Position numbers and translations under genes: made by a program. A model generated the notes under the pieces. The model had not been told where the DNA came from. It saw only the letters and a program-made list of their open reading frames with translations, and did no database searches. 64,000 bases of DNA. Origin: Syntrophobacteraceae bacterium. Lineage in GTDB: Bacteria; Desulfobacterota; Syntrophobacteria; Syntrophobacterales; Syntrophobacteraceae. Location: positions 1 through 64,000 of the forward strand of contig JALOPI010000002.1 in the NCBI GenBank assembly GCA_025453975.1, written 5' to 3'. Positions 1 to 41,991 of this stretch are shown one piece after another (position 1 is the stretch's first letter; each line of letters starts with the position of its first letter).

Positions 1-96
1 CTCATGATCTCCCACATCGACAAGAAGCGCATGGCCCTTGGAATCATGGGCGAGCGTGAGCGCAAGCTCTTCAGCATGGAAGATCGCCGGGCTTAG
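1..96 (+). CDS. C-terminal tail of a protein cut by the window edge, probably CO dehydrogenase catalytic subunit
   Basis: Only the last 31 codons are in the window, ending at the TAG at 94-96. The tail has an H-I-D-K-K-R-x-A-L-G-I pattern that resembles the C-terminus of Ni-containing CO dehydrogenase catalytic subunits (CooS/AcsA). The position fits, because acsB follows on the same strand after about 120 bases and these two genes are commonly adjacent. The assignment rests on a short stretch plus context, so another pathway protein is possible. Confidence 0.5.
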   Translation, partial: LMISHIDKKRMALGIMGERERKLFSMEDRRA

Positions 97-101
97 GCCC
101 T

Positions 102-215: not shown

Positions 216-2435
216 ATGTCACGTCTAGTTGCATTTGCTGCCATTCAAGGTGCCTACAACATTCTCTCCAAGGCGGAAGGCGCGTTCAAGCGTGCCATGG
301 ACAAGTATGGCGCGAACCAGCCCCTGGCTTTCCCCAACACGGCGTACTATCTGCCGGTTATTTACTCCATCCTGGGCATGAAGGTCGAGAAAGTGGCCGA
401 CGCCGAGCCGGTTCTGGCCCGCTGCAAGGCGCTGCTTCCTCCGCACATCAAGACCAAGGGCAACATCCACGTTCCTTACCTGGGACATCTTCTGGATGCC
501 GGTATGGCCGCCATCCTGGCCGAAGAGATCGTGGAAGCCATTCGTTACGTGGAAGATCCCGATTTCTATCTTCCCGGTGAAGATTGCGATCTGGACAATG
601 GCAAGATGTGGCTGGGTGCTGCGGACGACGTCATCATGAGAAAGCGCGGCGTGGAGTTTGTGGACGGTTCCGCTCCGGGTTTCGCGGCCATCGTCGGTGC
701 CGCCCCCACTCCCGAGATCGCCAAGATGATCGTCGAGGACTATCAGAAGAAGAACCTCTATATCTTCCTCGCAGCCAACCAGGCGGGAACCACCGTGGCC
801 CAGCAGCTGGTGGATGCCGGTGTTCAGATCGGCTGGGGTACCCGTATCGTTCCGTTCGGTCCTGACATCTCGGCCGCCGTTTTTGCTCTGGGCTTCGCCA
901 ACAGGGCGGCCATGGCTTTCGGTGGCGTGCAGCCCGGGGACTACCGGTCCATCCTGAAGTACAACAAGGATCGCGTCTTCGCGTTCGTGAACGCTCTGGG
1001 CGAAGTGAACGCCGAATGGGCCGCCAATGCGGCCGGTGCCGTCAACTGGGGCTTCCCGACCATCTCCGACACGGACATTCCCGAAATCCTCCCGACCGGT
1101 GTCTGCACTTACGAGCACGTGGTCGCCAATGTGACTCACGATCAGATGACCGCGAAATCCATCGAAGTGCGCGGCCTCAAGGTCACCATCACCGAGGTTC
1201 CGGTGCCCGTGTCCTACGGTCCTGCTTTCGAAGGCGAGCGCGTGCGCAAGGACGATGTGTACCTGGAATGCGGTGGCGGCAAGACCCCGTGCTTCGAGCT
1301 GGTGCAGATCGCCGACATGAATGAGGTCGAGGACGGCAAGGTCGAAGTGATCGGGCCGGACCTCAAGGACGTGCAGCCGGGCAGCCGCCTTCCCCTGGGT
1401 GTCATCGTCCAGGTGGCGGGGCGCAAGATGCAGCCCGACTATGAGCCCATCCTGGAGCGCCAGATCCACCACCTGGTGAACTACGCTCAGGGCATCATGC
1501 ACATAGGGCAGCGCGACATCGCCTGGTACCGCATCGGCAAGCCGGCCGTCGAGAAGGGCTTCACCATGGAGCACATCGGCAAGATCCTCCATGCGAAGTA
1601 CCATCAGGATTTCGGCGCCATTTTCGACAAATGCCAGGTCAAGATCTACACCGACGAAGCCAAGGTCAGGGAGCTTCTGCCCGTGGCTCAGGCGGCTTAC
1701 AAGACGCGCGACGCCCGCGTGGAGAACATGACCGACGAATCCGTCGAGACCTACTACTCCTGTACGCTGTGCCAGTCGTTCGCTCCGACCCACGTGTGCG
1801 TCATCAGCCCCGAGCGCACGGGACTCTGCGGCGCTTACAACTGGCTGGATTGCAAGGCTTCATTTGAGATCAATCCCACGGGTCCCAACCAGCCCATCGA
1901 GAAGGGCGAGACGATGGATCCGAAACTGGGGAACTGGCAGGGAGTCAACGACTTTGTGTACAAAGCGTCCCGTCAGTCCATATCGACCTACAATTTTTAC
2001 AGCCTGGTCTTCGATCCCATGACCACCTGCGGCTGCTGCGAGTGTATCGCCGCGGTCCTGCCCACCTGCAACGGCATCATGACCGTCAACCGTGACTATA
2101 CGGGCATGACGCCGAGCGGCATGAAGTTCACGACCCTGGCCGGAACCATCGGTGGTGGGAACGTGACCCCGGGCTTCGTGGGACACAGCAAGTTCAACGT
2201 CACCCAGCGCAAGTACATCGCCGGAGACGGCGGCTTGAAGCGCCTGGTGTGGATGCCCAAGATCCTGAAGGAGGAGCTTCGCGATCGCCTGTTGAAGCGG
2301 GGCGAGGAGATCGGCATCCCGAACTTCATCGACATGATCGCCACCGAGGAAAACGCGGTCACGGAAGATGAAGTGTACGCCTTCATGGAAAAGGTGGGGC
2401 ATCCGGCCCTGACGATGGACAGCATTCTCGGATAG
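216..2435 (+). CDS. acsB: Acetyl-CoA synthase subunit of CODH/ACS
   Basis: This 739-residue protein catalyses the condensation of CO, the methyl group from the corrinoid iron-sulfur protein, and CoA into acetyl-CoA, or the reverse cleavage. The A-cluster ligands are all visible. C516, C519, C528 and C538 would hold the [4Fe-4S] cluster, and the C605-G-C607 motif with C519 would bind the Ni sites; this is the Moorella spacing shifted by 10. The length matches bacterial AcsB. The start follows a strong GAAGGAG ribosome site. The next gene begins 78 bases downstream, so the block looks like one operon. The reaction direction cannot be read from sequence; in sulfate reducers or syntrophs it may run oxidatively. 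Confidence 0.97.
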   Translation: MSRLVAFAAIQGAYNILSKAEGAFKRAMDKYGANQPLAFPNTAYYLPVIYSILGMKVEKVADAEPVLARCKALLPPHIKTKGNIHVPYLGHLLDAGMAAILAEEIVEAIRYVEDPDFYLPGEDCDLDNGKMWLGAADDVIMRKRGVEFVDGSAPGFAAIVGAAPTPEIAKMIVEDYQKKNLYIFLAANQAGTTVAQQLVDAGVQIGWGTRIVPFGPDISAAVFALGFANRAAMAFGGVQPGDYRSILKYNKDRVFAFVNALGEVNAEWAANAAGAVNWGFPTISDTDIPEILPTGVCTYEHVVANVTHDQMTAKSIEVRGLKVTITEVPVPVSYGPAFEGERVRKDDVYLECGGGKTPCFELVQIADMNEVEDGKVEVIGPDLKDVQPGSRLPLGVIVQVAGRKMQPDYEPILERQIHHLVNYAQGIMHIGQRDIAWYRIGKPAVEKGFTMEHIGKILHAKYHQDFGAIFDKCQVKIYTDEAKVRELLPVAQAAYKTRDARVENMTDESVETYYSCTLCQSFAPTHVCVISPERTGLCGAYNWLDCKASFEINPTGPNQPIEKGETMDPKLGNWQGVNDFVYKASRQSISTYNFYSLVFDPMTTCGCCECIAAVLPTCNGIMTVNRDYTGMTPSGMKFTTLAGTIGGGNVTPGFVGHSKFNVTQRKYIAGDGGLKRLVWMPKILKEELRDRLLKRGEEIGIPNFIDMIATEENAVTEDEVYAFMEKVGHPALTMDSILG

Positions 2436-2513
2436 CTTGTGCGCGGGGGAGCGATCCCCCGCGCCTGACAGGTTTGTTGCAGAAGATTCCGTATGCGATG
2501 AGGAGAGAGACAG

Positions 2514-3784
2514 ATGGGTCTTACTGGTATTCAGATCTTTAAGTTGCTTCCCAAGACCAACTGTGGTGAATGTGGCGTTCCCACTTGCTTGCCGCCGAGT
2601 CCGCCCCTCCCATTCGGCCGCTCACCATCGGCACGGGTGAGTACGCATTGAAAATCGGCGGTGAGACCGTACTGTTCCGTCACGAGAAGACTTTCGTCAA
2701 TCCTCCTGGGCTGGCGGCGGTGGTGTCGACGGACGAAGACGATGCCAGTGTGACCGGCAAGATGAATCGCATGAAAGAGGCTCAGTACGATCGCGTGGGC
2801 CTGAAGCTGCGGGCCGAGCTGTTCGCTATCAAGGACGCCAGCGGCGATGCGGGCAAGTTCACGGCTCTGGCCAAGAAGGTCGTCGAGGGCACGGGCGCCT
2901 CCCTCATCCTCATGTCGGACAGCGTGGACGTTTTGAAGGCCGCCGTGGCGGACCTGAAGGACAAGAAGCCTTTGATCTATGCGGCGACGGCAGCCAACGC
3001 CGACGCCCTGGGTGAGCTGGCCAAGGAAGCCGACTGCCCGCTGGCCGTCAAGGGTGATGGCAGCCTGGACAGCGTCATTGCGCTGACCGAGAAGCTGACG
3101 GGCATGGGACTCAAGGACCTCGTCATCGACACGGGCACGCGTGATCTCAAGAAGGCATTCGAGGAGCAGATCCAGATTCGCCGCTCGGCCCTCAAGGACC
3201 GGTTCCGCCCCCTGGGGTTCCCCACGATCATTTTCGCCAATGAAATGGCTTCCGGCCTTATGGAAGAGAGTTTGGTGGCGGCGACCTTCGTGGCCAAGTA
3301 CGGCGGGGTTCTCGTCCTGAGCGATTTCCAGGCCGACAGCCTTTTTCCGCTGTTCCTGGACAGGCTCAACATCTACACGGATCCTCAGCGGCCCATGACG
3401 GCCGAGCAGGGGATTTACCCCTTGAACAACCCCGACGAGAATTCACCGGTTCTGGTCACCTGCAACTTCTCCCTGACCTTCTTCATCGTGTCGGGAGAGA
3501 TCGAATCGAGCCGTGTGCCGACGTGGCTGTGTGTTCAGGACACCGAGGGTCTTTCCGTCATGACGGCGTGGGCCGCCGGCAAGTTCTCCGGTGAAAGCGT
3601 CGGGTCTTTCATCAACAAATGCGGAATCAAGGATAAGGTCAAGCACAAGAGCCTGGTGATCCCCGGCTACGCGGCTGGAATCAGCGGCGAGCTGGAAGAG
3701 GAGCTGGGCGGCTGGAGCATCCAGGTTGGCCCGCGCGAAGCCAGCCAGATTCCTAAATTCCTCAAGGCCTGGAAGGCTGCTTAA
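2514..3784 (+). pseudogene. acsC: Corrinoid iron-sulfur protein large subunit, broken by an internal deletion and frameshift
   Basis: The real start is ATG 2514, preceded by GAGGAGAG. The first 26 codons match AcsC, including C17, C20 and C25 of its [4Fe-4S] site. At about 2589 homology stops, and this frame ends at TGA 2649. Homology resumes in another frame (codons from 2591) at A-A-E-S-A-P-P-I and continues intact to 3784, with the TIM-barrel and corrinoid-binding C-terminal parts present. Roughly 28-30 codons are missing, with a length of 1 modulo 3. The missing part normally carries the fourth cluster Cys. It is either a true lesion in a key pathway gene or an assembly/sequencing error. 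The partner subunit AcsD is not in this window. Confidence 0.85.
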
Positions 3785-41960: not shown

Positions 41961-41991
41961 AAAAAGTTTACGGATTTCGCTGAGGTTTGCT

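Follow-up and report, generated by a model that had tools for sequence, protein, structure and literature searches.

The gene acsC encodes the large subunit of the corrinoid/iron-sulfur protein, and in the DNA considered here it stands in two reading frames with a piece absent between them. This raises the question of whether the organism has lost an iron-sulfur ligand from a protein of the acetyl-CoA pathway or whether the loss lies in the deposited record. The window (the whole 64,000-nucleotide stretch analysed) corresponds to the initial 64 kb of contig C27 (136,094 bases) of draft genome G000, which comprises 118 contigs, is 88.1% complete with 5.9% contamination and is evidently a metagenome-assembled genome (MAG). 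From the window start the gene order is the last acsA codons, acsB, acsC, acsE and, as named from its sequence, a pyruvate phosphate dikinase-like gene. The features are collected in Table 1.

Table 1. Features of the acsC region, with coordinates in the window.
Feature	Position	Strand	Basis
99-base contig-end overlap (putative k-mer node); bases 1-96 are the final codons and stop of acsA (CODH)	1..99	+	Exact match to the 99-base end of G000:C18 and the 99-base start of G000:C87
Intact acsB, encoding the acetyl-CoA synthase alpha/beta subunit (739 aa)	216..2435	+	NF040764, 1106.8 bits (cut-off 800)
99-base block exactly common to the window and C88 (L003), ending at the deletion junction	2489..2587	+	Sequence comparison
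Genuine 5' end of acsC, through the Cys25 codon of the [4Fe-4S] domain	2514..2587	+	PF04060; NF003195 positions 1-26
Probable false junction, with loss of 82 bases, of Cys42 and of the frame	2587..2588	+	Alignment against L002/C76 (99.9% identity across 21 kb)
Remaining part of acsC (corrinoid/iron-sulfur protein large subunit), open in a frame of its own (ORF 2570-3784)	2588..3784	+	NF003195, 516 bits; PF03599, 319 bits
acsE-like methyltransferase, intact, 294 aa	3977..4861	+	PF00809 above cut-off; NF005719, 209 bits, below the curated cut-off of 259

As deposited, acsC starts at ATG 2514, which is preceded by GAGGAGAGAGACAG, a good ribosome site. The first frame encodes MGLTGIQIFKLLPKTNCGECGVPTCL before it runs out of frame, with a stop after 45 codons (2514-2651). 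The remainder of AcsC is encoded in a different open frame and matches NF003195 from profile position 53 onward, its score lying well above the curated cut-off of 306 bits for the family. Across the junction the window reads CCCACTTG followed directly by CTTGCCGCCGAG (also written CCCACTTG followed by CTTGCCGCC), with no Ns. These observations bear out the sequence-only reading of this DNA, which had placed the start at ATG 2514 with its ribosome site, had noted C17, C20 and C25 and had described a jump in homology to A-A-E-S-A-P-P-I in another frame. It had also taken the neighbouring acsB and acsE to be intact, as the profile matches confirm, and had suggested looking in the genome for a second acsC and for acsD. 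Neither search gave a hit: a second acsC was not found in the G000 genome, and the acsD family model (PF03599) returned no acsD match in the G000 bin or in the MAG G002. A second, acsD-like match is present in 16 of 20 relatives, mostly on the same contig as acsC; because the assembly branches at the end of acsA (see below), the contig with acsD was probably not binned. Elsewhere in the genome, a Prismane-family (CODH/hybrid-cluster) gene at G000:C67:41833-43444 also lies in two frames, split near 41,990, and its profile coordinates show no residues missing.

The extent of the loss is given by a near-identical contig, L002 (scaffold_2698 of MAG Prado114; G002:C76), which shares 99.89% identity with the window across 21,084 bases and carries a complete acsC. 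It differs from the window at approximately 24 places in 21 kb and is either another strain or another assembly of the window strain. Across the missing region L002 reads ...TNCGECGVPTCLAFAMNLAAGKAELEKCPYVSDEAKEKLAAESAPPI..., with cysteines at positions 17, 20, 25 and 42 of the intact protein, and its AcsC scores 613.5 bits against NF003195 over profile positions 4-447. Compared with L002, the window lacks 82 bases after base 2587, a length that shifts the frame and replaces the earlier estimate of 85-90 bases. The fourth ligand of the N-terminal [4Fe-4S] cluster, Cys42, lies within the lost piece, as had been proposed together with the loss of frame, so that the window copy as assembled has Cys17, Cys20 and Cys25 only. 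The intact protein aligns end to end with solved corrinoid iron-sulfur protein large subunits. The body of the window copy resembles the known AcsC/CdhE large (gamma) subunits (NF003195; PDB entries 2h9a, 4djd and 9fzy) over profile positions 53-447; it differs from them in that approximately 27 codons are missing and the frame is lost from Cys25 to residue 53, a difference that we judge to be an assembly error. In the other relatives examined whose sequence reaches the site the start of acsC is intact, with the exception of one contig, L003. L002 itself starts only 66 bases before the junction, within the 99-base block described below.

The position of the junction, between 2587 and 2588, is ambiguous by one base only, and no collapsed short repeat was found there. 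CTTGCC-like bases in the flanks had been suggested to mediate a deletion. A deletion mediated by CTTG would give CCCACTTGCCGCC, whereas the window has CCCACTTGCTTGCCGCC; since the CTTG copies are not collapsed at the junction, they did not mediate the loss, and microhomology was rejected as its cause.

L003 (G002:C88) belongs to a second species, approximately 85% identical to the window, and its acsC lacks 39 bases, in frame, with Cys25 changed to Trp; this deletion is sized against L002. It begins (L003 2604) at exactly the same base as the window deletion. Up to that base the two contigs share a block of exactly 99 identical bases, the next-longest exact matches between them being 78 bases (a tRNA-Lys) and 53 bases. 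A slowly evolving 5' region was considered as the cause of this identity and rejected, the other relatives being at most approximately 85% identical within the block. Prado114 contains C76 and C113, which are nearly identical to the window species, together with their approximately 85%-identical counterpart C88, and therefore appears to mix two species.

The length of the block recurs at the ends of contigs. In G000 a stretch of exactly 99 bases is common to the end of C18 and the beginnings of C27 and C87; in G002 the starts of C88 and C122 likewise have exactly 99 bases in common, and C113 ends with the opening 99 bases of the window. Among the 61 contig ends surveyed, 99-base overlaps occur only at this acsA node; the other matches, between the ends of C9 and C16, were set aside because the two ends of each of these contigs resemble each other and are probably masked stretches. 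Judged from the contig sequences, 99 is the k-mer overlap of the assembler, since this is the exact length by which adjoining contigs overlap in the two assemblies. The acsC junction thus falls where an exactly shared block, as long as the contig overlap of the assembly, stops. The 99-mer that closes acsA branches in each of the two species: at the stop codon or shortly beyond it the sequence continues in two unrelated ways, either into acsB or into a different region, which carries metF/metV/hdrA-like genes in the case of C87 and unrelated genes in that of C122. This suggests either that each genome has, at another place, a second near-identical copy of acsA or at least of its 3' end, or that the assembly is tangled further at this point.

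The same pattern is found in a different gene. On C113 of Prado114 (L182), acsA lacks 85 bases that are present on G000:C18, where the gene is intact. The exact match to the left of this junction is again exactly 99 bases (L182 4628-4726) and is ended by a mismatch. All three deletions, in acsC of the window, in acsC of C88 and in acsA of C113, start at the ends of exactly 99-base shared blocks, and their right ends are arbitrary, with no Ns at the joins. As the deletions start where a shared de Bruijn node ends, have arbitrary right ends, contain no Ns and make no use of microhomology, an error of the assembler is indicated. The sequence-only reading had allowed for a wrong assembly, and this option now has strong support from the intact near-identical contig, the shared 99-mer, the 99-base overlaps and the recurrence on C113. 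On this evidence the 82-base gap in acsC is almost certainly an assembly error, and the 39-base loss in L003 is judged to be the same artefact.

Such an error could arise as follows. Two related species with one common k-mer of 99 bases around the start of acsC would cause the assembly graph to branch at its end, and contigs would stop where this node ends. If the offset or overlap were then misestimated when a contig ending in the 99-mer was attached to its successor, the bases just after the node would be dropped and no Ns would be inserted. The node and the pattern of deletions are observed; from them we infer that the assembled data contained both species and that the bases were dropped in a scaffolding (joining) step. 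The 'scaffold_' names of Prado114 would, we presume, fit the assembler IDBA-UD. Overlaps between contig ends equal to the largest k-mer, or to k minus 1, have been described for short-read metagenomes, together with local assembly errors through which wrong protein-coding genes enter databases (Chen et al., 2020; PMC7111523); according to that study, such errors are suspected to be most pronounced in IDBA-UD assemblies. Our case resembles those errors in the fixed, k-mer-length overlaps of contig ends and in a consensus join that damages a coding gene. It differs from them in being a gapless loss that begins where a shared 99-mer ends, observed in three cases in the contig sequences.

The explanation that survives best beside assembly error is that a real 82-base deletion inactivated acsC in this strain and made it a fresh mutant in the acetyl-CoA pathway, as the earlier reading had also considered. 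The deposited sequence without Ns, the intact acsB and acsE and the lack of a second acsC would fit such a mutant, and the differences between L002 and the window mean that L002 may be another strain. It is nevertheless very improbable, given an intact acsC in a 99.9%-identical contig, a left breakpoint that falls exactly where a 99-base node ends and that is common to a different deletion in another species, and a microhomology that was not used. Less probable still is a true alteration of the AcsC N-terminus in both species of the genus, by an 82-base frameshift in one and a 39-base in-frame loss with Cys25 replaced by Trp in the other, amounting to convergent loss of the [4Fe-4S] cluster with the 99 bases shared by recombination. 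Deletions at the same base in two contigs, and a block too similar for species that are 85% identical, would be expected from this history; the near-identical contig is intact, however, the block has exactly the length of the assembler overlap and the pattern reappears in acsA of another contig. If it were true, both sister species would have lost part of the AcsC [4Fe-4S] domain, and their corrinoid protein would be working, or being discarded, without its reactivating cluster. That acsC is read normally through programmed frameshifting or bypassing has a negligible chance of being correct: both parts of the gene are conserved in different frames, but a frameshift would not supply the 82 missing coding bases, among them the Cys42 codon, and the readable relatives need no recoding.

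Assembly error remains by far the best account, and it carries a caution for such assemblies, in which gene-breaking deletions of approximately 40-85 bases without Ns occur where an exact 99-base match between contigs ends. Such errors can be recognized from the sequence itself by asking whether a junction abuts a shared block of k-mer length. For the organism the finding is biologically unimportant. The deposited record does contain the deletion, and the organism very probably does not; it most likely has a normal AcsC with its [4Fe-4S] cluster and, very probably, a normal gene of the acetyl-CoA pathway.
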